IMG/VR virus record: IMGVR_UViG_3300035698_028461
Location: 1 to 34,237 of that record
DNA length: 34,237 nucleotides
Strand: one strand, 5' to 3'
DNA from: a virus
In this document: piece by piece, positions 17,573-31,912 of the stretch
Numbering within the stretch: position 1 is the stretch's first letter
Layout: each line of letters begins with the position of its first letter
Notes under the pieces: model-generated
What the model saw: the letters and a program-made list of their open reading frames with translations, nothing else
What the model was told of the DNA's origin: nothing
Databases searched by the model: none
Translations under genes and position numbers: made by a program

Positions 17573-17629
17573 GGTTCTATCACCTCCAAATCAAAAGTGT
17601 TAAGACGAGTTACCCATTGGCTTTTTATT

Positions 17630-18109
17630 TTACCCAATAAACGAAAATCCGCCCCCTCTCATCAAGACCGGAATAATATCGCCATCATCTCCATCATTCA
17701 AGGCAATTCCCAATGCACCCTGGAGAGTTCCACCTCCAGTCGGAGTATAAGGTTTGAGAAGACCAGCTTCTCCATCATCAGCCCCAACATACTCACCTCT
17801 GGTAATGGATTCAGCACACTCACATTTAATGACGGGACCACAAGATACAGGAACCGCTTCTCCATCTTTCGCATCGGATAAAGCAACCCCCAATACAACG
17901 ACGGTCATATCTCCGGCAGCATAAACTTTTGCTTCCCGGAAATTAGTTCCAATGGCAACGATATCTCCTTCGAGAAGAGAAAGCGAAGACTCCATTGCTC
18001 CTTTATCTGCCCCCCCTCGATCATCATCTCCTTCTGCCAAAAAATTCTGGATGAAATCATTGGGACTCCAGCCATAAGTAAACCCTGTTGTTTCAGTCGG
18101 CAGTGCCAT
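17630..18109 (-). CDS. Capsid decoration/stabilisation protein (DUF2190-like), 159 aa
   Basis: Starts after TAAAGGAGGTGTTTTAAAC. It is Gly- and Asp-rich and beta-strand-rich: EGDIVAIGTNFREAKVYAAG, VVVLGVALSDAKDGEAVPVS, CAESITRGEYVGAD, and a closing GALGIALNDGDDGDIIPVL. The arrangement of a 'G.AL....DG..V.V' unit occurring twice is typical of DUF2190 or capsid cement proteins. These trimerise on the outer capsid surface. Position between the protease/scaffold and capsid genes is standard. Confidence 0.8.
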   Translation of the reverse strand: MALPTETTGFTYGWSPNDFIQNFLAEGDDDRGGADKGAMESSLSLLEGDIVAIGTNFREAKVYAAGDMTVVVLGVALSDAKDGEAVPVSCGPVIKCECAESITRGEYVGADDGEAGLLKPYTPTGGGTLQGALGIALNDGDDGDIIPVLMRGGGFSFIG

Positions 18110-18134
18110 GTTTAAAACACCTCCTTTATAAAGT

Positions 18135-18146
18135 TTAAAATTTCAT
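18135..18146 (-). other. Three-codon minicistron with ribosome site
   Basis: Between the scaffold and decoration genes, AAGGAGAG is followed at good spacing by ATG AAA TTT TAA. Such a minimal frame could hold ribosomes and tune expression of the decoration gene 26 bases later, or be a relic of a lost start. It is a sequence observation only. Confidence 0.3.
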
Positions 18147-18174
18147 TTTATTCTCTCCTTATATAAAGAAGAGA

Positions 18175-18918
18175 TTATTCGCCGAGCTTACCTTCCGTAG
18201 AAAATACAACCAATGCTTCTTCGAATGTAATTTTATGTTCGTCAGCATAAGCTTCAACATCTTCAATGGAAGCTTCCTGCAAAGTGCCGGTAGGAGTGCG
18301 AACTGATTCTGAAGTTTCGCCATCATCAAACCGATGCTCTTTAGGAATGGATGTAAGAATATCCTCAACAACATCCAGAAAAGATTTGGTTACATCTTTA
18401 GCCGCATCGCCTTCTCCTTCAGACAAGGTAATGTTGAAGCTCTTTACGGGTTCAGTCAAGGCGATTTTTTCAATGACTTTCAAAGTTGCCGGAAAAGCTC
18501 CGAGATCTTTGAAATCCGCCAGCTTTTTTTCAGTAAAAATCTTCAGCTTACCATCCTGGAGTTCTTTATTTGACCCCATTAAGCTTTTTACTGAATCGGT
18601 CAACGATGTCACATTTTCAGACAACTGAGTGACTGTCGCATTTGATGCTTCCAATGCATTCTGGGCATCCTGCAACGCTTTATTGGTAGCTTCAAATTCT
18701 TCCAGAGAAACTGTCGTCGCCGAAGTTTTCTTTTCTTTTTTCTCAGGCGATTCCTCAGAGAGTTTTACAATTGCACCCTTTACTTCTTCCAAGCTGGTAG
18801 TTAGAGTCTCTAACTCTTCCTTACTTTCTTTTTTGTCGGAAGCAGCTTCCTCTAATGCAGTAATTTTTACATTAATATCCGCCTGTTCTGTTTTCAATTC
18901 TTCAAGAGTTCTTTTCAT
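18175..18918 (-). CDS. Nested scaffolding protein, 247 aa (internal in-frame start)
   Basis: Inside the protease gene, AAGGAGGTG (18928-18936), nearly a full anti-Shine-Dalgarno match, lies 9 bases before an in-frame ATG at codon 207, exactly where the protease domain ends and the coiled coil begins. Translation from here gives a separate scaffold, as in lambda C/Nu3 and the Mu I/Z pair. The product starts MKRTLEELKTEQAD and ends with a conserved-looking globular tail (EDVEAYADEHKITFEEALVVF), which may bind the capsid protein. A site this strong in the middle of a gene is unlikely to be chance. Confidence 0.85.
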   Translation of the reverse strand: MKRTLEELKTEQADINVKITALEEAASDKKESKEELETLTTSLEEVKGAIVKLSEESPEKKEKKTSATTVSLEEFEATNKALQDAQNALEASNATVTQLSENVTSLTDSVKSLMGSNKELQDGKLKIFTEKKLADFKDLGAFPATLKVIEKIALTEPVKSFNITLSEGEGDAAKDVTKSFLDVVEDILTSIPKEHRFDDGETSESVRTPTGTLQEASIEDVEAYADEHKITFEEALVVFSTEGKLGE

Positions 18919-19536
18919 TGACTTATTCACCTCCTTGTTAGATTCTGAATTATCGTTAGTAATCTCTATGAGTTCTAGTATGTCTCCGTCCTCGCTGAGC
19001 GAAACCGGAAGCATTCCTTTAATAAATGGCCTATTGGTAAGTCCACCTCCTAACACCGTAGGGCCATGAGAAAGCTTAGTCTCTTTATCTATAGTTTTTT
19101 CATCGTCATCTACATCTGATTCGAATTGATATTCGGTATAATCATCTGTATATTCAATCGAAAAATATTTGAATTCCTTATCTTCAATGGATTTCTTTCC
19201 CTTGGCAGTTAATGTAACATCAGCCATAAGCTGGTCTTTTTCTCTGAATAGCCGATTGACCCAAGCAGCAGCACCATAATCAGGCTGATGCTTAAAATCA
19301 AAGGCAATTTCAGGATTAGGCAGATCAGCTTCAAAGTTTCTTATCATATTATCAAAAAACTTTTCATCAAAACTCATTATGCCCCACCACGGATGGCGAA
19401 ATTTACCTTCTTTAAGGCATTGAATTTGGATTGGTTTATCTTCGACAAAAGTCTTAGAATCAAAAAAGGAACTCGGGATGGAAGAAACAAACTTACGAAA
19501 AGGCTCCTCGTGCTTTCTGTTTCCTGTTTTTTTCAT
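18175..19536 (-). CDS. Mu I-like capsid maturation protease with C-terminal scaffold, 453 aa
   Basis: Residues 1-205 match the Mu I protease family: IAFDFKHQPDYGAAAWV (78-93), LMADVTLTAKGKKSIEDKEFKYFSIEY (103-129), and GGGLTNRPFIKGM (163-175). His83 and Ser126 are candidate active-site residues by position; this is inference. Residues 207-453 are a highly charged coiled coil (EELKTEQADINVKITALEE...), typical of a scaffold. The protease cleaves the scaffold and often capsid arms during maturation. Its ATG overlaps the stop of a truncated upstream gene (ATGA). A nested internal start is described separately. Confidence 0.9.
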   Translation of the reverse strand: MKKTGNRKHEEPFRKFVSSIPSSFFDSKTFVEDKPIQIQCLKEGKFRHPWWGIMSFDEKFFDNMIRNFEADLPNPEIAFDFKHQPDYGAAAWVNRLFREKDQLMADVTLTAKGKKSIEDKEFKYFSIEYTDDYTEYQFESDVDDDEKTIDKETKLSHGPTVLGGGLTNRPFIKGMLPVSLSEDGDILELIEITNDNSESNKEVNKSMKRTLEELKTEQADINVKITALEEAASDKKESKEELETLTTSLEEVKGAIVKLSEESPEKKEKKTSATTVSLEEFEATNKALQDAQNALEASNATVTQLSENVTSLTDSVKSLMGSNKELQDGKLKIFTEKKLADFKDLGAFPATLKVIEKIALTEPVKSFNITLSEGEGDAAKDVTKSFLDVVEDILTSIPKEHRFDDGETSESVRTPTGTLQEASIEDVEAYADEHKITFEEALVVFSTEGKLGE

Positions 19537-19673
19537 GCTAACAATCCTATCTTGCTTTGTTTTGAAAGAGTATTATTTTGAAGGTAGGGTTCAAACTCTT
19601 TCGGATTAAATAAATCACGAACATAGCCTAAATCACTTTCTACCTCCTTTCGAAATCTTCTTTCATTAATATT
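19533..19673 (-). pseudogene. Orphan C-terminal end of a lost upstream head gene
   Basis: A 46-codon frame that reads as protein (ESDLGYVRDLFNPKEFEPYL near the middle) and whose TGA stop overlaps the protease ATG as ATGA, the usual sign of a coupled upstream gene. It has no ATG, GTG or TTG start and is closed upstream by an in-frame TAG at 19674-19676. In related head operons the gene before the protease is the portal or a Mu F/gp29-like head gene, so this may be its remnant. The identity is inference. The candidate promoter at 19671-19699 now covers its upstream edge. Confidence 0.6.
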
Positions 19674-19699
19674 CTAGATAAGAAACAAGTAAATGGCAA
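19671..19699 (-). promoter_or_regulatory. Candidate sigma70-like promoter for the capsid operon
   Basis: On the minus strand TTGCCA (19694-19699), a 17-base spacer, and TAGAAT (19671-19676), each one mismatch from consensus with ideal spacing. Transcription would start near 19664, about 130 bases before the protease start. It separates the glycan cassette from the head genes and is the best promoter match I found in the window. Confidence 0.6.
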
Positions 19700-19708
19700 T
19701 TTAACATA

Positions 19709-19751
19709 AGACACCTAAACCACAAAGCTTTTTTTTTATCTCAGACACCTA
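19709..19751 (-). repeat. Paired direct repeat upstream of the capsid promoter
   Basis: AGACACCTA (plus strand) occurs at 19709-19717 and again at 19743-19751, 34 bases apart, just upstream of the candidate promoter. The spacing is about three helical turns, so both could be bound on the same DNA face by an activator. The intergenic stretch around it (19674-19816) is otherwise AT-rich with no convincing ORF. Confidence 0.5.
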
Positions 19752-19816
19752 TTCTAAAAACTAAAAAACTCTTCTTGTGAAAAATTCTTTTAATAAAGTT
19801 TTTTTCAGTCCAATCT

Positions 19817-20740
19817 TTAAGTTTTTTCAAGATGATTTTTCCACCATCCTTTTATAGCATCATACTCTTGTTTGTTCATATACTTTTCATCAATATATTT
19901 CAATTCAGGCGGAACTCTGTTTTCTTTATCCCTCCACCAGATATTATTCTCCGCATGTATATGACGAAAGCCTGCTATCTTACAAAAATCTCCATAACCT
20001 TTTTCATGTAATTGTTCATTTTTAGGATTTTCTAACTGAACCACTTTCAGCCCTAAATCTTTTATAGCTCTTCCCATTCTTCCTTCGCAGTTACCAAATT
20101 CTTGACAAGTGGATTCATAAGCTTTAAGAGGAATAAAGCCATCAGTAAAATGTTTCATCATAGCCTGTATAGCTTCTGTCCTCCCAATAAAACCAGTAGA
20201 ATTAAATACAGGTCTCGCCCCTTCTTCATCCCACCATCCACAAGAAATAAGATCTGCATCCTCTTTCTTTAATCTTTCAAATAATTCGAAAATGCCTTCT
20301 GGAGATTCTACAATACAATCGCCATTAGCAGAATAAATATATTTAAAATCCTTCATAGCAGAAAGTCCAAGCTTAAGAAGCCAGAAATATGGATACAATA
20401 CTCCTCCCCACTTTTGATAAGGACTCATTATGAAACAATTCACTTGGTCAATTACTTCACGAGAAGGCATTATATGATCCCATGTTGTTTCTGGTCTATC
20501 TGGGTCAAAATAGTTATCATAAGCTAAAGTGATCCACAACTTAGTCTTTTTGTGAGACTCAACCGAAGCCCTTAAAAAAGCTCTCCCTCCAGGATGTGCT
20601 GTCAGCAATATTCCCATTTCTTTACGATATGGGAAAGCAATATTGTGATCGCACCAAGAAAATCTTCTTGATAATGTCACATAATCATCCCTATCCCGCT
20701 TATTGGCTAAAGTTGGAATATCTATTCTGCGAAATGACAA
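19817..20740 (-). CDS. Glycosyltransferase-like protein (GT-A), 307 aa, paralogue A
   Basis: TTG start with AGGGAGG at a 7-base distance. Early strand and nucleotide-type loop: GILLTAHPGGRAFLRASVES (43-62), then WITLAYDNYFDP. The phrase YIYSANGDCIVESPEG (134-149) takes the place of the DxD metal motif of GT-A enzymes. The next gene has almost the same phrase, so the two are paralogues from a duplication. It likely transfers a sugar in the neighbouring glycan pathway. Soluble, no membrane segment. Acceptor and donor are unknown. It is the last gene of the cassette before the capsid promoter. Confidence 0.7.
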   Translation of the reverse strand: MSFRRIDIPTLANKRDRDDYVTLSRRFSWCDHNIAFPYRKEMGILLTAHPGGRAFLRASVESHKKTKLWITLAYDNYFDPDRPETTWDHIMPSREVIDQVNCFIMSPYQKWGGVLYPYFWLLKLGLSAMKDFKYIYSANGDCIVESPEGIFELFERLKKEDADLISCGWWDEEGARPVFNSTGFIGRTEAIQAMMKHFTDGFIPLKAYESTCQEFGNCEGRMGRAIKDLGLKVVQLENPKNEQLHEKGYGDFCKIAGFRHIHAENNIWWRDKENRVPPELKYIDEKYMNKQEYDAIKGWWKNHLEKT

Positions 20741-20775
20741 TTTACTACCTCCCTATGATTTATTCATAAAACTTT

Positions 20776-21825
20776 TTATCCCGGAATCATCTTACAAATT
20801 TCCATTATTCCTTCAAACCTATTATCTGCACCAATTTCATAAACAGGTTCTTTCCCATAATATTCTATAGGGTAATACACACGGTCATACCAACTCGTTT
20901 CATTATGATCAAACGCTTGATACAAATATCTTCTATCTTTTGTTTCATAAAACGTATATAAAGAATCACTACATCCCTTACAAACCACTTTCATTTTCTC
21001 CACATCTATGTATTCAAGATTAACAGGCTCTCTTCTTTCAATCAAACAAGTTAAAAACTCAGAACCTAAATTTCTATATCCAACTAATCTCTTCCATGTA
21101 GAATCCTGGTTATATCTGGAATAGTGATCAACGCTTGAACCGTCTAACTCCATTGGCTGTATCGGGGCAACTTTTTCTTTTAATTTATTATGTCTAACTG
21201 CAAGAGTCAATAACTCTTCAGGGCTAAAAGAACCCATAATAGCAGGAGAAATGAACTCCCACATAAAATCCATAACATCATGAAAGATTCTAGCTTTATA
21301 AATAACAGCACAAGTATGAATATTATTTTTCTGGGAAGAAATCGACAGAAGATCATTATCGCCCAATTCATCTTTTAAGGCTTGCAAGCCTTCTGGAGAT
21401 TCCCAAATACAATCTCCATTTACATGAATTATGTATTCAAAGTTTACATGTTGTCTTACGATACCCTGAGCATAATTCATAAGCCACAACCAGCCATCTC
21501 TCTTGTCGCTATCATAAGTTATATGCTTAAATACCCAGGCATGAGGAATGGACCATATTTCCCTATCGGGCATATAATTGCGATATGTGTTTTCATCTTT
21601 CTCCCAAGGCTTTAAATTATTATCAAAAGCGCATAAAACAAAAGCTCCTGATTTGACATATTGCTTTAGAGTAGCTTCTAAGAAATGAAGATGTCCCCAC
21701 CAAGAAGTGACTATAATAGCAGTATCTTTTTGTTTTGGCATATCGTTATGGTCGAAAGATAAATCAAACCAATTAGGTCTAGATGAATATAGATACCCAG
21801 ATGGATTCACTTTACTTAGATCCAT
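20776..21825 (-). CDS. Glycosyltransferase-like protein (GT-A), 349 aa, paralogue B
   Basis: I prefer the ATG at 21825 because GGGAG lies 5 bases upstream; an earlier ATG at 21858 would add 11 residues but has no good ribosome site. Early strand AIIVTSWWGHLHFLEATLKQ (37-56), AFDNN (66-70), then YIIHVNGDCIWESPEG (131-146), closely like the neighbour's YIYSANGDCIVESPEG. The C-terminal part has Tyr-rich segments (YTFYETKDRRYLYQAF). It overlaps the upstream methyltransferase gene by 14 bases. A sugar-transfer role is inferred from fold pattern and company; the donor is unknown. Confidence 0.68.
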   Translation of the reverse strand: MDLSKVNPSGYLYSSRPNWFDLSFDHNDMPKQKDTAIIVTSWWGHLHFLEATLKQYVKSGAFVLCAFDNNLKPWEKDENTYRNYMPDREIWSIPHAWVFKHITYDSDKRDGWLWLMNYAQGIVRQHVNFEYIIHVNGDCIWESPEGLQALKDELGDNDLLSISSQKNNIHTCAVIYKARIFHDVMDFMWEFISPAIMGSFSPEELLTLAVRHNKLKEKVAPIQPMELDGSSVDHYSRYNQDSTWKRLVGYRNLGSEFLTCLIERREPVNLEYIDVEKMKVVCKGCSDSLYTFYETKDRRYLYQAFDHNETSWYDRVYYPIEYYGKEPVYEIGADNRFEGIMEICKMIPG

Positions 21826-22498
21826 GGAGTCTCCCGTTTTGTCTATATATAGATTCATCAGGCATATTTTTTCTAACCATTGTTAAGCCAGCATCCCAAG
21901 AACCATATGGAAAAGTAAACACATCCCAAGGCCAAATTTCTAATTTTTTTCTAAACTTATAACCATCGCCACTTCTATTTTCGGCAGTCTCACATTCGTC
22001 TTTGGGATAAAGATCGTGAAAAAATATAAATCCGCCTGGGACTAACACTTCCATCATATTTACAAAATCTTTTTCGACTTGATCCGTCATGTGATCGCCA
22101 TCTATGAACCCAAGAGCAATCGGAGAAATATTAGTAGTAGAAAAGAACTCATCAGAAGTGCCATTAAACATAAAATTGCTATCGTCAAAAAAATCGCCAA
22201 CGGTACAAAGATTTTCATAATCAGATCTCTGTAAATCAACGTGATAAACTTTTCTGTTATACTTTCTCGCTAACCAAGTAAATAAATGCGAGCTCTCACC
22301 TATGCCTATTTCTATAATATCACCCTGTACCCAATAGAGAACGTAATCAGCGAGAACATTAAGTGCCCCCCATTTATCCCACTGATATTTACTAGAAAAT
22401 GGAATAGGACAATTAGAATCAAATTTTATTTCTTTTTTTAATTCAACAGACCCTGGGTGTTTGGTTTTATTCACAGAGTTTTTTGCATGAATGAACAT
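21812..22498 (-). CDS. Class I SAM-dependent methyltransferase, 228 aa
   Basis: Start ATG has AGGAG 6 bases upstream, within a duplicated 15-bp element. Motif I is EIGIGESSHL (63-72), the acidic end of strand 2 is VYHVDLQ (84-90), and FIDGDH (131-136) is the motif IV/metal-type site typical of Methyltransf_24 O-methyltransferases acting on sugars. It ends with PWDVFTFPYGSWDAGLTMV. It overlaps the preceding gene by 32 bases and the following by 14, a tight operon. Likely O- or N-methylates a sugar made or attached by its neighbours. Confidence 0.82.
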   Translation of the reverse strand: MFIHAKNSVNKTKHPGSVELKKEIKFDSNCPIPFSSKYQWDKWGALNVLADYVLYWVQGDIIEIGIGESSHLFTWLARKYNRKVYHVDLQRSDYENLCTVGDFFDDSNFMFNGTSDEFFSTTNISPIALGFIDGDHMTDQVEKDFVNMMEVLVPGGFIFFHDLYPKDECETAENRSGDGYKFRKKLEIWPWDVFTFPYGSWDAGLTMVRKNMPDESIYRQNGRLHGSK

Positions 22499-22973
22499 AT
22501 TCTTCTCCTTTTGACTCTTCTCCTTTTGACTCTTCTGATGTTGATCTCAGTTCAGGAAAGAATGATAAGTAATTATAATATCTAATATCTTCATCTTCTA
22601 CTGTTACATGGTTCCAATTACTTAATTTTAAGAGAAGTAACAGGTCAAGCCCTCTGCCACAATGTAACACGCACAAATTATTCCGAAGATCCATAAGAGA
22701 TGTGAAATCAATGAGTTTTTGTTCGAGCTGTTGGCCCTCATTTATGATTATCTCCTTATTGAATGATGGAGTGCAGACTAATCTTCTTGGAATTGAATCA
22801 TTGCGATAGCTTTCTTCTCCTATATAAAAATATTTAGCCATTTCTATCGTAAAAAGATCTTCAAAAAATAAATGTTCTTTATCTCCAAAGCATCTTTGAT
22901 TATCTAATGGAAATGGCTGATACATGATATGCTTAATAAAATTACCAAGTCTTTCATCCTTGATTAAGTCCAT
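22467..22973 (-). CDS. Truncated methyltransferase-like protein, 168 aa
   Basis: Starts 3 bases after the HNH endonuclease stop, with GAGG in that gene's end. The first 95 residues are not recognised. Residues about 97-140 read NLCVLHCGRGLDLLLLLKL...HVTVED, which resembles motif I and strand 2 of a Rossmann-fold methyltransferase. The fold stops there: the remaining strands are absent, and the end is the low-complexity SEESKGEESKGEE followed by a short Cys-rich tail. It may be a 3'-truncated gene whose end was lost when the next gene was joined, or a small accessory subunit. Confidence 0.6.
   Translation of the reverse strand: MDLIKDERLGNFIKHIMYQPFPLDNQRCFGDKEHLFFEDLFTIEMAKYFYIGEESYRNDSIPRRLVCTPSFNKEIIINEGQQLEQKLIDFTSLMDLRNNLCVLHCGRGLDLLLLLKLSNWNHVTVEDEDIRYYNYLSFFPELRSTSEESKGEESKGEEYVHSCKKLCE
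22503..22532 (-). repeat. Duplicated 15-bp unit carrying a ribosome site
   Basis: TTCTCCTTTTGACTC (plus strand) is repeated head-to-tail at 22503-22517 and 22518-22532, followed by a partial third copy. In the upstream gene it encodes EESKGEESKG. Each copy carries AGGAG on the coding strand; the one nearer the start serves the downstream methyltransferase. Confidence 0.85.
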
Positions 22974-22976
22974 TGT

Positions 22977-23894
22977 TTACCTCGTTGTTTTTTTCATAAC
23001 TGCTTTAGCTCTATGAATAACTCCACAAATACAGTTTTGAGAACAATTATATTCAATAGCTAATTTATCTTGTGAAATATTTTCATTTTTATATCTTTTT
23101 AAAATTAACAAACATTCATTATTTGAAAATTTAAAATTTCCAAAATTAGGATGTTTATTCCCAGACCTATCTTCACTCATTTTATTTTTTGTTTCCTGCG
23201 AATGCCTATAGCCAAGAGCATACGAATTACCTAAAGATGCTTTTCCTATTTTTCTTCTAGTTTCTTCTGTAAATTTTCTATTCTTGGCAGCGAAACTTAA
23301 TTTATTTCTAGTCTCAATTGATAAATTTTCTCTCTTATGAGCAACACTCATCTTTCTTTTAGATTCAATGGACATCTTCTTTCCAGTCTGTGCTACTCTC
23401 ATTTTTTCTCTAGTTTCTAAGGAAACAATTTTTCCCGTATGTGCTCTTATTACAGCTTTTCTATGTTCTTCTGTCCAAATTAATCCATTTTCTTTAGCAT
23501 GTTTCATATTTTCTTTATGGGTGACGCATTCTAATTTAGAAAGATTATTTAAAGCTTTATCTCCTTCTGGATTATCATGATTAATTTCATAACCCTTTGG
23601 AATTCTTTTAATCCATGTTTCCCATAATAATCGATGTAAATAAATTCTAGTATATTTTTTTTTATTTAGTGATAAACTAACTGTTATATATCCGGATGGC
23701 ATTTTAAATCCATTAATCGACATCACAGCATCATGACCTCTTGCACCCAGACTTCTAATGATGATTCCATCATAAGAAATTAAATAATCACTAAATAATA
23801 GTTTTTCGCCTTTTTTCCATAATCTAGGAATTCTCCATTTTCTTTTTTTAATTTCTTCATAATTTAGATCACCTACAAGTTCTGAAATTCTCAT
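22977..23894 (-). CDS. HNH homing endonuclease with NUMOD3 repeats and HTH, 305 aa
   Basis: Ribosome site GGGGAG before the ATG. The N-terminal half has an HNH_3-type site: YLHRLLWE (His87), EINHDNPEGDKALNNLSKLE (Asn105, His106, Asn117) and THKENMKHA. Residues about 142-245 are four to five NUMOD3-like DNA-binding repeats (SLETREKMRVAQTGK, SIESKRKMSVAH, and so on). The C-terminal 55 residues form a helix-turn-helix (NISQDKLAIEYNCSQNCICGVI). Free-standing enzymes like this cut a homing site in related phages and copy themselves in. It splits the methyltransferase genes and is preceded by a folded RNA element. Confidence 0.92.
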   Translation of the reverse strand: MRISELVGDLNYEEIKKRKWRIPRLWKKGEKLLFSDYLISYDGIIIRSLGARGHDAVMSINGFKMPSGYITVSLSLNKKKYTRIYLHRLLWETWIKRIPKGYEINHDNPEGDKALNNLSKLECVTHKENMKHAKENGLIWTEEHRKAVIRAHTGKIVSLETREKMRVAQTGKKMSIESKRKMSVAHKRENLSIETRNKLSFAAKNRKFTEETRRKIGKASLGNSYALGYRHSQETKNKMSEDRSGNKHPNFGNFKFSNNECLLILKRYKNENISQDKLAIEYNCSQNCICGVIHRAKAVMKKTTR

Positions 23895-23929
23895 AATAAC
23901 TCCCCTTACTTCATTCTCCCTTGAAATAA

Positions 23930-23988
23930 TCTTGTAGCAGAAAAGAGGGAGAGCTCTTTCTTTTCGAACCGTCGTTCTAGCTACAAGA
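23930..23988 (-). other. Folded RNA element upstream of the HNH gene
   Basis: Outer perfect 9-bp stem (TCTTGTAGC/GCTACAAGA) encloses a 7-bp hairpin (GAAAAGA/TCTTTTC, 23940-23946 with 23959-23965) and a 4-bp hairpin (GAAC/GTTC, 23966-23977), giving a three-way junction. It starts 12 bases after the methyltransferase stop and ends about 35 bases before the HNH start. No U-run follows, so it is not an intrinsic terminator. A similar element precedes the GIY-YIG gene. Confidence 0.6.
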
Positions 23989-24000
23989 ATTGAAAAACTC

Positions 24001-24588
24001 TTATTTAGTGATGCGTTTCATGATTGTGAGACTGGGAAATTGAGAATATGTTCCATAGATATAGTTTTCGTTAATTATTTTATTAAAATTAATTTCAGGC
24101 CTGATTGGCTTCTTTTTATATTTTGTCATCCATCCTACTTGATCCCTTTCTTCTGACCCTCCTTCAAACAAAAACAAGCCACAATGTCTTAGTTTAGGAG
24201 TCCAGTTCTCAACCATTTTTTTAATGATCTCTCCATCATTGCTTATATCAATATGAAGAAAATCAACAGTATCATCTTCATATTTTTCATGAACCACAAA
24301 TGCATTAGCTTTATGTAATGTGATATATTTATCGACCCTAGCTGCCTCTAATATTAACTTCACATCTTCCATACTGCCATGCTTAAATTTATAATCTTCC
24401 CATAAATCATAAGCATCTAAGTGGCATTCTGAACCTTTAAGTTCTTCAACTTTCTTCATACCATTTCCTATATAGCCAGCACTATATCCATCAAGAACTC
24501 CAATCTCAACAGCTATACCAGGAGGAAAGGCAAATATGGTATTTTCAAAAACTTTACCAAAATTATTTAAAAGATAAGAAGACCTCAT
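24001..24588 (-). CDS. Class I SAM-dependent methyltransferase, 195 aa
   Basis: Two ATGs compete: one at 24597 touches the AAAAAGGG ribosome site and cannot use it; the one at 24588 is 9 bases from it and is preferred. Motif I is AVEIGVLDGYSAGYI (26-40). The acidic strand-2 position is LDAYDLWED, and DFLHIDISNDGEII is the motif IV region, as in Methyltransf_24 proteins. The following GLFLFEGGSEERD would be the strand after the catalytic loop. It is coupled to the DegT aminotransferase gene, so a methylated amino sugar is a reasonable product. The substrate is not known. Confidence 0.78.
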   Translation of the reverse strand: MRSSYLLNNFGKVFENTIFAFPPGIAVEIGVLDGYSAGYIGNGMKKVEELKGSECHLDAYDLWEDYKFKHGSMEDVKLILEAARVDKYITLHKANAFVVHEKYEDDTVDFLHIDISNDGEIIKKMVENWTPKLRHCGLFLFEGGSEERDQVGWMTKYKKKPIRPEINFNKIINENYIYGTYSQFPSLTIMKRITK

Positions 24589-24590
24589 GA

Positions 24591-25721
24591 TCACCATCCC
24601 TTTTTTATTGTTTCAATTATATATTCCCTATCTTCTTTCGTCACCCACCATCCGCAAGGAAAACAAATCCTTTTATTTTCAACATAATCAAGATTATGCA
24701 GATTATCACTTCTATATTTTTTAACACAACTATTTAAATCTAATCTCCCATGAACTTTCGAGACTGCAATTCCTTTTTCTCCCATCATTCTAGAAAAGCC
24801 AATCACATCTTTAACTAAGATTGTAAAAATCCAATTAGATGATTTTCTATCTGTTCCATTTTGCAATAAAGTTATTTCTGTAAAATCACTTAATTCTTTT
24901 TTATAAAATTCAACATTTTTTTGTGCAAGCTTAATATTTTGATTAACTTCTGTGAGATTACATAGTCCAATTGTTGCATTGATATCGTTCATTTGCATTT
25001 TATATCCTGGATAAACGATATCCTCAGCACATCTCATATCTTGGAGTTTACTTTCTCTTGAAATTCCAAACCATCTAAGTAATTTCCCTAGCTCATAATC
25101 TGTTTGATCTTTGGTTAATAAGCATCCACCATCTGCACATGTTAAATGTTTTATTGCCTGAAATGAAATCATGCAGAAATCACTATAGGTACAATCTCCA
25201 ATTGTTGAATCTTTATATGTTGAGTTTAAACAATGAGCTCCATCTTCAATGATTGGAATATTATATTCTAAAGATATTTCTCTTATTTCTTCGAGATCAG
25301 CGGGATATCCACCCCAATGAACAAATGAAATAGCAACCGTATTTTCGTTTATCGTTTTTCTTATTGATTTTGGATCAATATTTAAAGTATCCTTTTGAAT
25401 ATCCACCCATCTAATACCATAACCTTCAGTTAAAATTGGAGCGATTGTTGCAAAACATGATAGAGGAGAAGTCACAATGTTTTTACCCATACTTTGCCCT
25501 TTGTTTTTTATTTTGAGCAGCGCAAGGGCTAACTGGAGGCCTGCTGTGCCACTGTTTAGGTTTAAGCAGTATGGGTTTTTAAATATGCTTTTTAATTTAT
25601 TCTCAAATTCAATAACCTTCGGACCTTCGCCAACATATCCAGAATGTATAGTTTCAAGTAACGGCTTATCTATTGATTTTGACATAAAGACTTTAAAAAG
25701 CGGTATAATTGGTGTGTTCAT
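24591..25721 (-). CDS. DegT/DnrJ/EryC1/StrS sugar aminotransferase, 376 aa
   Basis: Full-length PLP-dependent aminotransferase of this family. SGTAGLQLAL (57-66) binds the cofactor phosphate, EDGAHC (159-164) provides the Asp160/His163 pair at the pyridine ring, and SFQAIKHLTCADGG (186-199) holds the Schiff-base lysine Lys191. The C-terminal part has the typical IFTILVKD strand. These enzymes convert a nucleotide-linked keto-sugar to an amino sugar. No dehydratase or nucleotidyltransferase is encoded here, so the keto-sugar would come from the host or from genes outside the window. Ribosome site AAGGAGATAAGATT. Confidence 0.93.
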   Translation of the reverse strand: MNTPIIPLFKVFMSKSIDKPLLETIHSGYVGEGPKVIEFENKLKSIFKNPYCLNLNSGTAGLQLALALLKIKNKGQSMGKNIVTSPLSCFATIAPILTEGYGIRWVDIQKDTLNIDPKSIRKTINENTVAISFVHWGGYPADLEEIREISLEYNIPIIEDGAHCLNSTYKDSTIGDCTYSDFCMISFQAIKHLTCADGGCLLTKDQTDYELGKLLRWFGISRESKLQDMRCAEDIVYPGYKMQMNDINATIGLCNLTEVNQNIKLAQKNVEFYKKELSDFTEITLLQNGTDRKSSNWIFTILVKDVIGFSRMMGEKGIAVSKVHGRLDLNSCVKKYRSDNLHNLDYVENKRICFPCGWWVTKEDREYIIETIKKGW

Positions 25722-25737
25722 AATCTTATCTCCTTAA

Positions 25738-26379
25738 TTAATAATCCCGACGTAAATATCCGCCCGAATTAAAAGTGAAAATTAACTTCTCTCTTGCATA
25801 ATCAACAGAAAATTCGGGATGTCTTATTCTAAATTCTTCAACAGCTTTACCAGGACCTGGATCATCATACTTCCATTTTACAGGATTACCTTCTTTGGAA
25901 ACGTGGGTATCTTCAACAATTAAATAAGATCCAACAGAAACAAATGGATGATATAACTCAAGTTCCCTAGTCACATGATTATAGCTATGCCAGGAATCTA
26001 ATATAACAATATTCTTAAGGCCCATGCATTCTCTTCTTACTTGATCTATAATCCAATCATCAGTGCTATCTCCAATTAAAGGAATTATCCTGTTCCTAGC
26101 TGGAAGATGTGAAATCTCTCTGGGATTAAACTTGGACTCCTTATCAATGGTGATAACCTCACCATGCCCAAGCTGATCCAAGATAGTTGCAAAAAATAAA
26201 GCTGATCCTCCATAGTTAGTTCCAGTTTCTATAATATAGTCTGGACCAACAGTATAGATAATCTCTTGCAGTATAAGAAGATCGTTAGGGTTTTTCCATA
26301 TTGGCAAGCCTAGCCAATAAGTCTTTTGCCAAAGCCTATTCTCTTCATAGTAAACATGGTATGGATCAGATACTTTCAT
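25738..26379 (-). CDS. CmcI-like (cephalosporin hydroxylase/rhamnosyl O-methyltransferase) protein, 213 aa
   Basis: The characteristic motifs of the CmcI family are all present: KNPNDLLILQEIIYTVGPDYIIETGTNYGGSA is spread over 29-60, GEVITIDK (73-80), VILDSWHSYNHVTRELELY (125-143), VEDTHV (155-160) and PGPGKAVEEF near 174-183. Despite the name, members related to rhamnosyl O-methyltransferase methylate sugar hydroxyls. The start overlaps the stop of the NUMOD3 gene (ATGA). It lies next to the DegT gene and probably acts in the same glycan pathway. Confidence 0.88.
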   Translation of the reverse strand: MKVSDPYHVYYEENRLWQKTYWLGLPIWKNPNDLLILQEIIYTVGPDYIIETGTNYGGSALFFATILDQLGHGEVITIDKESKFNPREISHLPARNRIIPLIGDSTDDWIIDQVRRECMGLKNIVILDSWHSYNHVTRELELYHPFVSVGSYLIVEDTHVSKEGNPVKWKYDDPGPGKAVEEFRIRHPEFSVDYAREKLIFTFNSGGYLRRDY

Positions 26380-26906
26380 GATGAATACTCCCTTATGGTT
26401 TGGTCTATTAATTCTTGTTTAGTGAGATGATTTGGATTGTAAGAATACCCCTGGAGAATTCTATTGGCGCAACTCACAGAGCTTACGAGCTTATTAGCTA
26501 TTTCTTTTTGGGTCCAATGCTCCACATAAGAAAGCCTTCTCACTTCTTTTGCCTGATTATCAGTAAGCTTTGAATTGACATGCTTTTCTCCAGAAACTCT
26601 TTTGCCCATCATTTCTTTTGATTTTTTTGAGTGATGCTTTCCATGCATGGGATTATTCTTTCCAGATTTAGCTATGCTCAGTTTCTTTAAAGTTTCTTCT
26701 GAAGGTGATTTTCCATAATTAGGGTGATTTTTTCCAGAATTACATATTTTAAGAATTTCCACCGTTTCTTTGGAATGTTTTTTACCATAAAATGGATTAT
26801 TTTCACCTTTGCGAGTTTCTGATTGATTCTTCCTATATTCTTCATCTTTCCACATTTCTTTCCTCTTAGTGGAAATATGATTTCTGTACTCTTCGCTTTC
26901 CCACAT
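26376..26906 (-). CDS. NUMOD3-HTH part of a split homing endonuclease, 176 aa
   Basis: Three to four NUMOD3 repeats (GENNPFYGKKHSKETVEILK, GKNHPNYGKSPSEETLKKL, GKNNPMHGKHHSKKSKEMM) followed by a helix-turn-helix with KLTDNQAKEVRRLSYVEHWTQKEIANKL. There is no nuclease active site of its own. In GIY-YIG homing enzymes such repeats follow the nuclease domain in one protein. Here the nuclease domain is the gene just upstream in another frame. It may be a DNA-binding remnant, or be joined to it by a frame change (see the findings). Confidence 0.8.
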   Translation of the reverse strand: MWESEEYRNHISTKRKEMWKDEEYRKNQSETRKGENNPFYGKKHSKETVEILKICNSGKNHPNYGKSPSEETLKKLSIAKSGKNNPMHGKHHSKKSKEMMGKRVSGEKHVNSKLTDNQAKEVRRLSYVEHWTQKEIANKLVSSVSCANRILQGYSYNPNHLTKQELIDQTIREYSS

Positions 26907-26910
26907 TTCT

Positions 26911-27339
26911 TCACTTTTTTATCTTACATTTTTTAACCATCTTATCATGCCTTTTCTTTGATAAGTTTCGATTTCCATCAAGTAAATTCAATAAAGGGCC
27001 TGTTTTTAAATCTTTTCTTCCAATTCCAATTATTAAATTTTCTTCTAGCTTAAAAGCTGATTTTTTTTCCATCAATGAAAATTCTTTCAAGACTTTAAAA
27101 ACAGGCTCAAGCCCACATTTCCTTATATTCTTAATTCTCTTCTTTAATCTTTTATTTTTTGGATTAATTTTTAAATGACGTTTGCATCTCCCTATGGTTT
27201 TTGCACAACCTACATAGAATGGTTTATATTTCACCTTCATTCTGCCTTTATTTCCAAAGAAATATTCATATCCTTTTTTCTTATTCATAAACCTGGGATC
27301 ACAATATATGTAAACCTTTTGAATTTTTTCTTCTTCCAT
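26911..27339 (-). CDS. GIY-YIG nuclease part of a split homing endonuclease, 142 aa
   Basis: Ribosome site TTGGAGGTAAGCT before the ATG. The core reads VYIYCDP (9-15), KPFYVGCAKT (39-48), R51 in IGRCKRH, and the metal-binding glutamate in KLEENLIIGIGRKD (E99/E100), followed by TGPLLNLLDG. All elements of a GIY-YIG nuclease are present. The usual DNA-binding tail is missing: the frame stops after MVKKCKIKK in an A-rich stretch, and NUMOD3 repeats start 4 bases later in another frame. The domain may be cleavage-competent but poorly targeted alone. Confidence 0.88.
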   Translation of the reverse strand: MEEEKIQKVYIYCDPRFMNKKKGYEYFFGNKGRMKVKYKPFYVGCAKTIGRCKRHLKINPKNKRLKKRIKNIRKCGLEPVFKVLKEFSLMEKKSAFKLEENLIIGIGRKDLKTGPLLNLLDGNRNLSKKRHDKMVKKCKIKK

Positions 27340-27366
27340 AGCTTACCTCCAAGCTCCTCTTTAATT

Positions 27367-27430
27367 TTTGGGGAAGAAAAGAAGTGAGGTTATCTTCTCT
27401 TTCAGGTCTAGATTCCCTATCTTCCCCAAA
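27367..27430 (-). other. Folded RNA element upstream of the GIY-YIG gene
   Basis: Perfect 11-bp outer stem (27367-27377 with 27420-27430, TTTGGGGAAGA/TCTTCCCCAAA) around 42 bases holding an inner AGAAG/CTTCT hairpin. It begins 3 bases after the stop of the triple-fusion gene and ends about 27 bases before the GIY-YIG start. No U-run follows. It resembles the element at 23930-23988 in interior length and layout, but the outer stem sequence is different. Confidence 0.6.
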
Positions 27431-27433
27431 CAT

Positions 27434-30220
27434 TTATTCACCTTCTCCTATAATGGATTTTATCCATAATTGAGGATCATATTTTTCTTGTGCATGTTTT
27501 TTAGCTGCCTTCCCCATTTTTTCTCTTATCGCAGGATCATTTAATTTCTCAAACATAGGCAGGGCTTCTTCAAAATTATTATAAAGAAACCCTGTTCCTT
27601 CTATTACTCGATCTGCCGGACCACTATGATTGTTCGCAATAACAGGAAGCCCTGCTGCTTGGCTCTCCATTACAGTCTTTGGCCCTTGATCATGGTATCC
27701 ATCTGGCAAATCGTACCAGTAAACTGATCCTAATGCAAGAAAATCTTTCACTTGAGGAACGTTCTTTTTATGAACAATTACTCTTTCTCTATGATCTTCC
27801 AAGAAACTGGGACCAGGCATTAATCTAATAGTAGCTTCCGGAAATGCTTCTAATATGGCTGAAATCTTTTCGTTAAAATCCTTTGCATATTTGGCATCAT
27901 TTTGTGAAGAATGCCTAACGATTCTCATAGGCCCACTGTAATCAGCATTAATACTTTCGTATTCACTAAGATCAGTCGGAGGAGGCAAAACTTTAGGATC
28001 AAAAGAATAATACTGATCTTTCATTGTCTCCATATAGGCGATAGAAAAAGCTTCAGACAATCCGCTATTCAAGAATATATACCTATCCCAGCCGAGAGTC
28101 CAAGGAATTTGTCCAATCTTTCCAAGTCTAAAATTAACAGCCATAACTTTACGTTTAGCCTGAGAAGCCTCTAGTGCCTTGACTACGTCCTCGTTGCCCA
28201 AAGACCATACCCAGTCATTAGTGTATAGCACGAAGACGTCACACGGGCTGCTCAGGCTGTCGAGACCCTGTATTACCCTGACAGCAGGATTACCAAATTC
28301 CCTAAAAGTGCCAGATGGGGTTGGTCCTGGATGAATATAATCAACATTCCAACCTTTTTGAATAAACTGGTCCATTATCCAAGTTGTACTTTTTTCTGCT
28401 CCACCTGATCCACGACCGTTGAACAATATTCTTATAGTTTTCTTTCCATCATCTACGGCTTTAATCGGAGGAGCTGATTCTTCTTTTACTATTTTAGAGT
28501 TCTTCTTTATCCACAAATGCCATCGATGCCCTCCTTTGCCAGGGCCATCAAATCCTTTCTTAAGAAATTTATCTTGCCATTTTCGTTCCCATTCTCTCCC
28601 TGCATCATGAATTAAAACAATGTCTGCTTGTTCGGAAGCAGTCTTCGTAGAAAATTCTCTAGGCTTTCCGCCTGGAGGACCATCAACTACTGCAAGATCA
28701 AATTTCGGAATTTCTTGAGGAATGACAACCCCATTCCACTGATGAAGATCGATTCTTTTATCTATTCCCTTTTCTCTCAATGATTTCATCCATACTTCAC
28801 TTGTTTCAAGGGAAACAATGTTTAGCCCTTTATCTGCCATTAAAAAAGTGGAAAGACCAGGACCAAATTCAAGAACTGTTTTTATTTTATAATCTTCAAT
28901 CACTTTCTTAAGAAATGCCCAATCTAAATCTGTTATACAAGCTCCACCCCATTTAAAGCCATGCATATCTATATCTTCGTTATTGCAATCAATAATGTCC
29001 GGCTTAACAATTGGAACCATAGTTTTCTGAATTGGAATCTCAATCTTATTTGAAACAGGATTAGGCAACGTAGGAATTCTAGGATGATCAAATGACAATC
29101 TGCCGCCTTCATAAAATTGATCAAATGCTCTAATGACATCTTGTGTCTTTATTATATCAACACATTTAGGGAATCGTTGTCCATCTTCTTCTATAATGGT
29201 TGGGCAAGTTTTTTCTAAATCACAATGCCAACAAGCGTTCGTAGCTGCGCAAGGCAAGCAACCGTCAGTACATAGATACTGATGACCAGGATAACGGGTA
29301 AAGCGAGCCGGCTCCCTTGCTCCAGCAATAGTCAGGCATGGCATTCCAAAAGCAGCGGCAAGATGCATCTGAAAACTTACAAGACCCATAGAACCTTCTG
29401 CAAAATAAAATAATTTAAACAGATCTCTTATTCCAGTATTTTTATCTTGAGTTTTCCCAATCATATTGATAACATTTTTATTAGGAAGATCAGGATGACG
29501 ATGTTCTTTGGCTCCAATTTGAACAAATTTCATATCTGGATAATGATCAACAACTTCTTTCCAACGACTAAATGGATATGTTTTTGCTGTCCAATCACCC
29601 TTTTCGCCAGCCACGATAATCCAATAAGGAGGTTTAATTATAGGTGTAGAGAGTTCTTCTTTCGTCATCCAAATATCAGGCTTAATTGCACCTTGAGGAA
29701 ACTCAATTCCAAGTTTATCCTGAATGCTAATTCTAAAAGCATTAGCAAAATGACGATCATCTCTATTGCTCGCATTAGTAAGGGCACTTGGACCAATTTC
29801 TATAATTTCAGCGTTATCTTTATTCAAAGACCTATCAAGATAAGGGTTATGATCCCAAATATGCATAGCTGTAGATTGAACATTAATGGGCCAATCCGGA
29901 AAAGCACTGCGGAAGTCTCGAATTGCACAACTAAACATTAAAATATCGCCTATAGCTTGACGATTTTTAAAAATGATAGGCTTATGTTTTGCAGGAGCTT
30001 TAGATTTAGAAAGATTAATTCCAAGAACTGAAATTAAGTCTTCAATAAGTTCCGTAGTGAGTTCTTTATCGACAGGATGTCTATGATGAATATGTCCATC
30101 TTTAAATTTTATAGAAAGAAGTGAATCTGCAGGATCTCTAAAGGAACATTCCGAATGCTTCTTGATATCAGAACGAACCTTGTTCATATATTTTCCAATT
30201 CTGCTATGTTTATCATTCAT
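27434..30220 (-). CDS. Triple fusion: GT9-like, SAM methyltransferase, GT4-like, 928 aa
   Basis: Residues about 80-370 resemble GT9 (heptosyltransferase-type, GT-B): KNRQAIGDILMFSCAIRDFR (85-104), a GEKGDWTAKTYPFSRWKEVV stretch (205-224), LVSFQMHLAAAFGMPCLTIAG (280-300), then a Cys cluster (317, 321, 324, 330, 333, 339, 353) that may bind metal. Residues about 420-575 are a methyltransferase: VLEFGPGLSTF (449-459), LETSE, and VVDGPPGG (511-518). Residues about 595-928 are a GT4-like GT-B enzyme: NGRGSGGAEKST (601-612) and, near 860-885, PKTVMESQAAGLPVIANNHSG. All three would modify one glycan in a single chain. There is no membrane segment. Confidence 0.85.
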   Translation of the reverse strand: MNDKHSRIGKYMNKVRSDIKKHSECSFRDPADSLLSIKFKDGHIHHRHPVDKELTTELIEDLISVLGINLSKSKAPAKHKPIIFKNRQAIGDILMFSCAIRDFRSAFPDWPINVQSTAMHIWDHNPYLDRSLNKDNAEIIEIGPSALTNASNRDDRHFANAFRISIQDKLGIEFPQGAIKPDIWMTKEELSTPIIKPPYWIIVAGEKGDWTAKTYPFSRWKEVVDHYPDMKFVQIGAKEHRHPDLPNKNVINMIGKTQDKNTGIRDLFKLFYFAEGSMGLVSFQMHLAAAFGMPCLTIAGAREPARFTRYPGHQYLCTDGCLPCAATNACWHCDLEKTCPTIIEEDGQRFPKCVDIIKTQDVIRAFDQFYEGGRLSFDHPRIPTLPNPVSNKIEIPIQKTMVPIVKPDIIDCNNEDIDMHGFKWGGACITDLDWAFLKKVIEDYKIKTVLEFGPGLSTFLMADKGLNIVSLETSEVWMKSLREKGIDKRIDLHQWNGVVIPQEIPKFDLAVVDGPPGGKPREFSTKTASEQADIVLIHDAGREWERKWQDKFLKKGFDGPGKGGHRWHLWIKKNSKIVKEESAPPIKAVDDGKKTIRILFNGRGSGGAEKSTTWIMDQFIQKGWNVDYIHPGPTPSGTFREFGNPAVRVIQGLDSLSSPCDVFVLYTNDWVWSLGNEDVVKALEASQAKRKVMAVNFRLGKIGQIPWTLGWDRYIFLNSGLSEAFSIAYMETMKDQYYSFDPKVLPPPTDLSEYESINADYSGPMRIVRHSSQNDAKYAKDFNEKISAILEAFPEATIRLMPGPSFLEDHRERVIVHKKNVPQVKDFLALGSVYWYDLPDGYHDQGPKTVMESQAAGLPVIANNHSGPADRVIEGTGFLYNNFEEALPMFEKLNDPAIREKMGKAAKKHAQEKYDPQLWIKSIIGEGE

Positions 30221-30255: not shown

Positions 30256-30477
30256 TTAATCCACAGAACCCTCTATATCTGTATCGGTATTCTCAGGCAT
30301 AACAATTTCAGCCTTCCACCCAAACACCCTACAGATTCCCTCCGCAAGATTAGCCAATTCATCCATTGTAATTCTCACCAGTCCATCGCTGTCGGGCTGT
30401 AACGATTCTTGCGCCCAGGATCCAATGAAACTCAAAAATTGAAAGATCTTCCAAAAACTCACTTTGATATTAGCCAT
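30256..30477 (-). CDS. Small phage protein of unknown function, 73 aa
   Basis: AGGAGG 7 bases before ATG, overlapping the end of the peptidase gene by 8 bases. It starts MANIKVSFWKIFQFLSFI, a short amphipathic or hydrophobic stretch, then ITMDELANLAEGICRVFGW and an acidic tail. It resembles small proteins that follow lysis genes in many phages. It could be membrane-associated and modulate the lysis genes, but this is not shown by the sequence. Confidence 0.65.
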   Translation of the reverse strand: MANIKVSFWKIFQFLSFIGSWAQESLQPDSDGLVRITMDELANLAEGICRVFGWKAEIVMPENTDTDIEGSVD

Positions 30478-30661
30478 TCGGTTTTCCTCCTTGTTTTGTT
30501 ATTGCCATTCTTACTCCTACGCCAGCCAACACTGCACCAATCGCAATTAGCCCATCGCCAATTGCGATAAATGATGGATCTATTATTCCCAATGCCTTTG
30601 CAATGTATCCCAGGCCAAACAAGATACTGCCAGTTATAGTTTTCCAGCCATACTTCTTCAT
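30470..30661 (-). CDS. Nested holin-like membrane protein, 63 aa (internal in-frame start)
   Basis: CAGGGAGG lies about 8 bases before an in-frame ATG at codon 192 of the peptidase gene. The product, MKKYGWKTITGSILFGLGYI..., has two hydrophobic segments (about 9-25 and 31-50) around a Pro/Asp turn (GIIDPSF), followed by a basic tail. Small phage proteins of this form are often called holin-like. The peptidase domain appears complete before this point, so the gene may give a fusion, a free holin, or both. Confidence 0.7.
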   Translation of the reverse strand: MKKYGWKTITGSILFGLGYIAKALGIIDPSFIAIGDGLIAIGAVLAGVGVRMAITKQGGKPNG

Positions 30662-31234
30662 ATTTAAAGCCTCCCTGTAATTGATTGTTAATAGTATATT
30701 TACTGTATCACTTTTAAACATGCCATCTGGAGTTAAAATATGATTACCTTTTATCATCTGATAATCATCTTTGAACAAATGATCATTCATTACATCCACT
30801 GCTTCAGTACAATAGTAATCGTCATTTGCGGAATTGAAATCGTAATCATATGGTACATGTATCCCTGCTAACATTAATGCTTTTGATGTCTGCGATGTAA
30901 CCCCGTCTTTTCGCCGCAAAACAGCTATCGCATCAGCTCTACAAAAATTAAGTATATCTTCTTTAATACACCCTTGACTTACAGAATGGACGATTTGATT
31001 ATTGCCAACATATTGTCCGGCATGACCCCAAAAACCAGGAGTACAAATTGTATTAACATATCCATCAAATCGTCTAAGCAAAATGTCTCCAGGCTGTATG
31101 GAACGCAAAACATTCCTAACATCCGCTCCTCTGACTCGATGTATATCTGGACGATAAACGACCCACATGGGATATTTATGGAGATATATATGTCCGCTTG
31201 CTTCTATGAGAAATTTTGGTAATTTTAGTTTCAT
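30470..31234 (-). CDS. YiiX-like permuted-papain peptidase/amidase, C-terminal holin-like fusion, 254 aa
   Basis: Residues about 40-175 have the permuted NlpC/P60-papain layout: QPGDILLRRFDGYVN (47-61), FWGHAGQYVG (68-77) with His71, IVHSVSQG (81-88), and YDYDFNSANDDYYCTEAV (129-146) with Cys142. That His-then-Cys order is typical of YiiX-type cysteine peptidases, which cleave peptide or amide bonds of cell-wall material. Residues 192-254 are hydrophobic and holin-like, with an internal start (see the next entry). Its ATG overlaps the stop of the 40-residue gene (ATGA). Location after the transglycosylase points to lysis. Confidence 0.8.
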   Translation of the reverse strand: MKLKLPKFLIEASGHIYLHKYPMWVVYRPDIHRVRGADVRNVLRSIQPGDILLRRFDGYVNTICTPGFWGHAGQYVGNNQIVHSVSQGCIKEDILNFCRADAIAVLRRKDGVTSQTSKALMLAGIHVPYDYDFNSANDDYYCTEAVDVMNDHLFKDDYQMIKGNHILTPDGMFKSDTVNILLTINYREALNMKKYGWKTITGSILFGLGYIAKALGIIDPSFIAIGDGLIAIGAVLAGVGVRMAITKQGGKPNG

Positions 31235-31353
31235 TTCTTTTTTCCAAAAATGTTTTGAAAAACTCTTGATAGAGTTTTTGCCGAGACAACGGCTTCAAAG
31301 CGAGAATGTCCTGTTTGCTTATCCACGTCCTTCCAGGCCTTTTCCAGGATCAT
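31231..31353 (-). CDS. Small basic protein, 40 aa
   Basis: Overlaps the end of the transglycosylase gene by 35 bases in another frame and has GGAGG 6 bases before its ATG. The stop TGA shares bases with the peptidase ATG (ATGA). The product begins MILEKAWKDVDKQTGHSRFE and ends FQNIFGKKK. Strong ribosome site and coupling at both ends support a real gene. No function is known; it might be a regulator or chaperone of the lysis enzymes. Confidence 0.62.
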   Translation of the reverse strand: MILEKAWKDVDKQTGHSRFEAVVSAKTLSRVFQNIFGKKK

Positions 31354-31912
31354 TAAAATCCTCCACTAATTTTGGCAGCACGTTATCGCCTGATGCTATA
31401 CGGTTCTCATTAGATCGGCATGTCTTATTTTTGACCTTTTCCCGTTTTTTGCGTTGAGCTACACCCACCTCTGCCCTGGTTAGCTCGTCCGCCTTTACCG
31501 CTTCCATCTTTTTTCGGAACACCTTTCTTTGCCATGTTTCATCCTCCTTTATCCTATCACGAATTTTATTTACTTTGTCTATGTAAAAAACCCTGTCGTT
31601 CGGATCACAAAAATGTACTGTTGCCTCTTCTTCTGACCCACACCGTTTTTGTAACAATCTAAGAAACAGGAGGATGCCACGTGAGATATCCACCACATCA
31701 TCATCATATTGCTCCATTTCCCAAAGTAGGTCTTTCATCGCTATGCTAGACATCTGGAAGACCCCACGGCATCCTGTAGATGATTTCTGGTGGAGTCCTA
31801 ATGATGATTCAACCATTGCAACAGCAACCGCCCAATTTGGATCAATTCCAAAGACCTTCGCCAGAGTTTCAATCTTCTCTTTTGTCTCAGTCTGCTTTAC
31901 GTTTAATTCCAT
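31319..31912 (-). CDS. SLT/lysozyme-like lytic transglycosylase, 197 aa
   Basis: Helical N-terminal lysozyme-like domain: FGIDPNWAVAVAMVESSLG (21-39) with catalytic Glu35, followed by GCRGVFQMSS (47-56) and ISRGILLFLRLLQKRCG near 76-92, which are the usual three elements of SLT transglycosylases. The C-terminal third is charged and basic (QRKKREKVKNKTC), perhaps cell-wall binding. GGAG lies 8 bases before the ATG. There is no signal peptide, so export would need a holin. It lies next to a peptidase and membrane proteins: a likely lysis module, although a virion role in entry is possible. Confidence 0.82.
   Translation of the reverse strand: MELNVKQTETKEKIETLAKVFGIDPNWAVAVAMVESSLGLHQKSSTGCRGVFQMSSIAMKDLLWEMEQYDDDVVDISRGILLFLRLLQKRCGSEEEATVHFCDPNDRVFYIDKVNKIRDRIKEDETWQRKVFRKKMEAVKADELTRAEVGVAQRKKREKVKNKTCRSNENRIASGDNVLPKLVEDFNDPGKGLEGRG

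Follow-up and report, generated by a model that had tools for sequence, protein, structure and literature searches.

A conserved glycan-enzyme cassette upstream of a phage head maturation protease and its probable role in virion glycosylation

Why would a phage carry a block of sugar-modifying enzymes between its lysis and its capsid genes, and what would these enzymes modify? The question is raised by a 34,237-base virus record of IMG/VR (IMGVR_UViG_3300035698_028461; hereafter the window, meaning the whole stretch of DNA analysed), in which the interval 19817-30220 holds eight glycan-linked families and three homing-endonuclease open reading frames (ORFs), between a C92 peptidase/SLT transglycosylase side (31912-30470) and the head module. 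A preliminary description made from the letters alone had read this interval as a glycan-modification cassette acting on the virion or the host surface rather than on DNA, which is also the reading with the best support here. We consider it probable that the cassette is a modular virion-glycosylation island placed just before the gene for the head maturation protease. Its position is that of a proven mycobacteriophage virion-glycosylation locus, but most of its enzymes are new, as is the way in which phages exchange it.

Conservation and exchange of the cassette

The cassette genes are ordered GMG928-CmcI-DegT-MT198-u168-MT228-GT360-GT307 (names as in Table 1), followed by the protease, the decoration protein and the major capsid protein (MCP). 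A search with the MCP yielded 31 viral loci. The window order from GMG928 to the MCP is kept in contig G001 (84 kb), the nearest long relative, in G004, and in L008 as far as that contig extends. Since an identical gene order recurs in independent contigs, the cassette is not a chance grouping. It is real, conserved and, as described below, exchanged between phages. Identity between the window and G001 is 97% for the MCP, 89% for the tube-like protein and 48-74% for the cassette enzymes. Host assignment through the MCP in genome contigs gave a single 32-residue match and was unusable.

A further 11 contigs of the lineage carry a homologue of the GT-A proteins GT360 and GT307 no more than a few genes away from the protease, in one case as a 62-aa fragment. 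In G002, G003, G007, G008, L009 and L033 this homologue is near the protease with other neighbouring genes, and alternative genes of this slot encode radical SAM/SPASM proteins (G002, G007, G008, L033) or GT-D-like, DUF2334, GT2 and LicD proteins (G008). Radical SAM proteins, most of them with SPASM, are found at or near the protease in G002, G007, G008, L033 and L027, and represent a different modification chemistry. An asparagine-synthase-like gene (L023:4053-4748) immediately precedes the head protease of L023, where no GT-A gene was seen. All eight families are present in G005 and six of them in G006, and neither contig matches any structural protein of the window; the G005 cassette sits between terminase/portal and baseplate/virion structural genes. 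Equivalence of the 238-aa and 211-aa proteins of G006 to u168 and MT228 was unsupported.

The histories of cassette and backbone conflict. In the protease tree, G008 and L009 group with the window, G001, G004, L008 and G010 (support 100/99), whereas in the GT-A tree they group with G007, G002 and G003 (support 100/100). Forcing the seven members of the first group, as defined from the protease tree, together in the GT-A tree was rejected by the approximately unbiased (AU) test (p-AU 1.2e-5). The MCPs of L008 and L009 are equally near that of the window (91%), whereas the identity of GT307 is 70% and 29%, respectively. As judged by these sequence comparisons, the cassette is exchanged horizontally between phages; a variable slot and conflicting histories are as expected for an exchanged surface trait. 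More tentatively, the slot before the head protease might be a virion-glycan 'serotype' locus common to unrelated tailed phages, where sets (methylated amino sugar, LicD-linked or radical-SAM-linked) are swapped like bacterial O-antigen clusters, the present one coating the particle with a methylated amino sugar.

Enzymes of the cassette

Four glycosyltransferase (GT) domains had been announced, and four were recovered: two in the fused protein GMG928, and one each in GT360 and GT307. The latter two are paralogues (E 5e-15) without any Pfam match. The AlphaFold2 model of GT360 (pLDDT 74) aligned over 165-206 residues with many GT-A enzymes (VIA Z about 14), and the catalytic-type Asp of the NGD motif, which is of DxD type, is invariant across 17 sequences. 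Fold and motif together predict that both are GT-A glycosyltransferases.

GMG928 combines three domains. Residues 75-375 are GT9-like (VIA Z 21, 270 residues aligned to a solved GT9 protein) and residues 594-927 GT4-like (VIA Z 23.7 against GT4 enzymes). The middle domain carries the invariant class I methyltransferase pattern, with a profile match to the solved methyltransferase 3ntv (E 3e-4). Homologues are 40-68% identical, the divergent ones touching Pfam GT9. Among solved structures, the GT9 domain matches lipopolysaccharide (LPS) heptosyltransferases best by sequence. Serine heptosylation of the TibC type, suggested by Foldseek, was not upheld. TibC is among the structural matches, but the profile search returned LPS-type GT9 enzymes and not TibC, and the cysteine-rich insert that ends the GT9 domain differs in spacing from the TibC iron finger (Cys339/342/358/370). 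Two standalone GT9 proteins of G001 likewise have cysteines where GMG928 has this insert. The G002 homologue (L020:1219-5136) contains a 379-aa intein with a LAGLIDADG endonuclease in its GT9 domain, at the position of window Cys98.

The DegT aminotransferase and the CmcI-like protein proved clear. The former matches PF01041 above cut-off (222.9 bits, residues 16-372), its pyridoxal-phosphate lysine being K191, aligned to the Lys of 4zwv. Its closest solved structures are AtmS13 (4zwv/4xau) and CalS13 (4zas), scoring 256 and 229 bits, respectively, against 119 bits for ArnB. By this sequence affinity DegT may act on a 4-keto-pentose, the type of substrate put forward for AtmS13. The DegT genes of G001 (L006:1031-3262) and G004 (L024:881-3094) are interrupted by inteins of 371 aa (Intein_splicing and LAGLIDADG); both inteins precede the same cysteine, Cys231 of the window protein, which is intein-free and retains the site. 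CmcI matches PF04989 at 183.9 bits, above cut-off, and its acidic residues D128, E156 and D157 are invariant in four relatives.

Up to four further methyltransferases had been proposed. Three were found, namely MT228, MT198 and the middle domain of GMG928; the fourth, u168, has no Pfam, PHROG or profile match. The profile comparison, made by hhalign, is insensitive, since it also failed to link MT228 with MT198. No relatives of GMG928, GT360, GT307 or CmcI were found among 50,697 sequenced phages. None of the cassette proteins has a transmembrane-grade segment (maximum KD19 1.43), which fits soluble acceptors.

Layout of the window

As had been described, the cassette lies between lysis-type and capsid genes. 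Every gene considered, in the cassette and in both flanks, lies on the minus strand and is thus read from higher towards lower coordinates (Table 1).

Table 1. Features of the cassette and its flanks, listed by window coordinates
Feature	Coordinates	Strand	Basis or remark
Head module flank: maturation protease (19536-18175), decoration protein, MCP (17572-16631)	16631..19536	-	PF10123, PF09956, phrog_1005
Gap before head protease with a leader that relatives conserve; head transcript may have its own start here	19537..19816	-	280 bp; alignment of seven contigs
GT307, GT-A-like glycosyltransferase, GT360 paralogue; anchor gene adjoining head protease	19817..20740	-	NGD at 139
GT360, GT-A fold glycosyltransferase (predicted)	20776..21858	-	NGD at 147
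MT228, class I methyltransferase	21812..22498	-	PF13578, E 4e-12; DGDH at 133, HD at 161
u168, conserved 168-aa cassette protein	22467..22973	-	kept in G001, G004, L008; G005 match
HNH homing endonuclease with NUMOD3; insertion, outside glycan pathway	22977..23894	-	PF07460, PF13392
MT198, class I methyltransferase	24001..24597	-	PF13578, E 3e-11
DegT/StrS nucleotide-sugar aminotransferase, AtmS13/CalS13-like	24591..25721	-	PF01041, E 9e-66
CmcI/rhamnosyl O-methyltransferase family protein	25738..26379	-	PF04989, E 4e-54
NUMOD3 part of homing endonuclease	26376..26906	-	PF07460
Homing-endonuclease-like ORF directly upstream of NUMOD3 ORF	26911..27339	-	phrog_314, E 2e-5
GMG928, 928-aa three-domain protein: GT9-like, class I methyltransferase, GT4-like	27434..30220	-	VIA, profile match
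Upstream flank: C92 peptidase-like and SLT transglycosylase-like genes	30470..31912	-	mostly not kept beside cassette in relatives (identity table)

The cassette genes overlap or are closely spaced, except for gaps of 94-106 bp beside two of the endonuclease ORFs. The single strand and the tight spacing inside the cassette agree with the claim that the genes are read together with their neighbours, but co-transcription with the head genes can only be presumed from position, as the gap with the conserved leader separates cassette and protease. No excess of sigma-70 promoters or terminators was found. A conserved motif of the protease leader, TTTCTTATCTAGAA, was considered as a phage promoter and rejected: the window has one exact copy, and mismatched copies occur at chance level.

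The three homing-endonuclease genes had gone unmentioned in the preliminary description. Such free-standing genes shift in position within the cassette from phage to phage (window, G001, G004). The late region also encodes a response-regulator receiver domain protein (32053-32469).

Virion, host surface or DNA?

By its genomic position the cassette may be expressed late, and the particle, the envelope and the genome are the candidate targets. Several observations weigh against a virion target. Location near late genes is equally compatible with host-surface modification. The 280-bp gap may uncouple transcription of the cassette from that of the head genes. The GT-A gene does not occur throughout the lineage, none being seen in L023, L031 and L027. 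Neither the profiles used (A1, A2) nor the window proteins significantly matched the glycosyltransferases of the Corndogvirus Idergollasper. Finally, G001 and G002 encode a protein of the thymidylate synthase (TS) superfamily (PF00303), hydroxymethylase-like, so that modified DNA is a possible acceptor.

Late modification of LPS core, capsule or another envelope glycan, which would mask receptors against debris binding or entry of a second phage, is unlikely, though the least so among the alternatives. Enzymes of the GT9 and GT4 families often take part in LPS assembly, and GMG928 has the heptosyltransferase matches given above; the slot of G008 has LicD and a GT2-like gene, and G001 has many further glycosyltransferases elsewhere in its genome. 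However, the cassette contains no recognised flippase, polymerase or membrane glycosyltransferase, its proteins are free of membrane segments, and the position right before the head protease matches the virion-glycosylation locus of Corndogvirus. Decoration of hydroxymethyl-deoxyuridine (hmdU) or another modified base appears somewhat less likely again. It survives because of the two dUMP-hydroxymethylase-like genes (L045:9301-10497 in G001, beside DNA polymerase III alpha, and G002:62758-63984), which make hmdU genomes possible in the lineage. The G001 protein scores best against the CMP hydroxymethylase MilA; alignments place a Met at the equivalent of thymidylate synthase Trp80 and keep the equivalent of Asn177, and the G002 protein is alike. 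Asn177 is the uracil-recognising residue of the family.

Virus-encoded glycosyltransferases that hypermodify DNA are known, according to the passage of PMC12619734 that cites Pyle 2024. Yet in the window lineage the cassette adjoins head genes and not replication genes, and the window fragment lacks a modified-base synthesis gene. G005 and G006, both fragments, carry cassette families without a TS-family match. HMUDK_hel was not found, in a search in which no control matched either. Moreover, G001 has a separate set of glycosyltransferases and methyltransferases beside its polymerase and hydroxymethylase-like gene, a better candidate for DNA modification. The 11-36 kb region of G001 (L045, L046) is a second large glycan region among replication genes, with GT1-like, GT2, GT4 and GT9 genes, methyltransferases and a CDP-glycerol glycerophosphotransferase-like gene. 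The preference of the preliminary description for virion or host surface is thus upheld by the Corndogvirus slot, the virion operon of G005 and the absence of membrane proteins, whereas its exclusion of DNA is not, given the hydroxymethylase-like genes. Very improbable, in our view, is the making or modification of a soluble metabolite such as an aminoglycoside-like compound: the nearest solved relatives of DegT belong to antibiotic pathways (PMC10951976), but the cassette has no recognised aglycone-forming enzyme, and placement in virion operons would have no obvious reason.

Proposed pathway

How would the cassette work as a virion-glycosylation island? As had been claimed, the search found no gene for nucleotide-sugar synthesis in the window; epimerase and NTP-transferase families were found neither there nor in G001, and G002 has one epimerase. 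We infer from the lack of these families in the window and G001 that the nucleotide keto-sugar is supplied by the host. DegT would aminate this 4-keto-sugar, most likely a keto-pentose or a 6-deoxy-keto-hexose, and CmcI, the two PF13578 proteins MT198 and MT228, and the middle domain of GMG928 would add O- or N-methyl groups. The kinship of DegT with AtmS13/CalS13 lends strength to the proposed conversion of a host keto-sugar into a methylated amino sugar, which remains a prediction from sequence. Soluble cytosolic glycosyltransferases (the GT9 and GT4 domains of GMG928, GT360 and GT307) would then build up a short glycan, capped by methyl groups, on protein side chains of the virion, either ahead of its assembly or in the course of it. 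Possible benefits would be shielding, adsorption or avoidance of receptor-based binding to debris.

Candidate acceptors may be the Ser/Asn-rich tails (SSSSSSSSN repeats) of the last visible tail-module protein (window 3-1211, C-terminal part; G004:2-1504). Both contigs end inside or near this protein.

That an uncultured lineage fills this slot with another, larger set of enzymes, which is exchanged and also occurs in contigs whose structural genes are unrelated, would suggest that many phages build glycans for their particles and that these glycans are subject to diversifying selection. The cassette further suggests an aminotransferase-methyltransferase-glycosyltransferase pathway open to cell-free study.

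Comparison with known systems

The preliminary description knew of no phage system with this exact set, but the general kind has already been described: virion glycosylation is experimentally known in mycobacteriophages. The O-methyltransferase and glycosyltransferases of cluster O are stated to modify capsid and tail tube proteins, according to the passage of PMC11600133 that cites Freeman 2023. Idergollasper (ON260829) has, in this order, terminase, HNH endonuclease, portal, O-methyltransferase (TylF-type), hypothetical protein, two annotated glycosyltransferases, capsid maturation protease and MCP. As in the window, O-methyltransferase and GT genes lie directly upstream of the protease, and both loci have a methyltransferase of the PF13578/TylF superfamily, MT228 giving a weak match to that of Idergollasper (E 2e-5 when seven proteins were searched). 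Unlike the eight families of the window, the Corndogvirus locus has four genes, without DegT, a CmcI-family protein or a three-domain protein, and its host is actinobacterial. As the glycosyltransferases are not sequence relatives, position and methyltransferase superfamily carry the comparison, and our claim is that the two loci work alike, not that they are orthologous.

The glycan cluster of Flavobacterium phage immuto (MW353176) shares a DegT relative (39% identity), glycosyltransferases and a methyltransferase with the window; unlike the latter, it has its own epimerase, and about 12 kb around it are free of annotated head genes. For the AT2433 pathway, it is postulated that a keto-pentose is aminated by AtmS13; AtmS10 N-methylates the product before AtmG1 transfers it (PMC10951976). 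Amination, methylation and transfer are thus united in one pathway there too, with the best matches of DegT (AtmS13/CalS13), but the antibiotic pathway also encodes nucleotide-sugar synthesis, for which no gene was found in the window.

A parallel in manner of working is seen in the chlorovirus PBCV-1, in which A064R, a single protein that unites two glycosyltransferases with a methyltransferase, finishes the capsid glycan (PMC9614988). Both systems have a soluble GT/GT/methyltransferase fusion and a separate sugar O-methyltransferase (A061L in PBCV-1), and the PBCV-1 set furnishes the major capsid protein with a glycan capped by methyl groups (PMC9614988). The domain order is GT-GT-methyltransferase in A064R, with a GT-A first domain, whereas it is GT9-methyltransferase-GT4 in the window, and PBCV-1 is a eukaryotic virus; the likeness is one of working, homology not being shown. 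GMG928 is nevertheless a three-domain enzyme comparable in plan to A064R.

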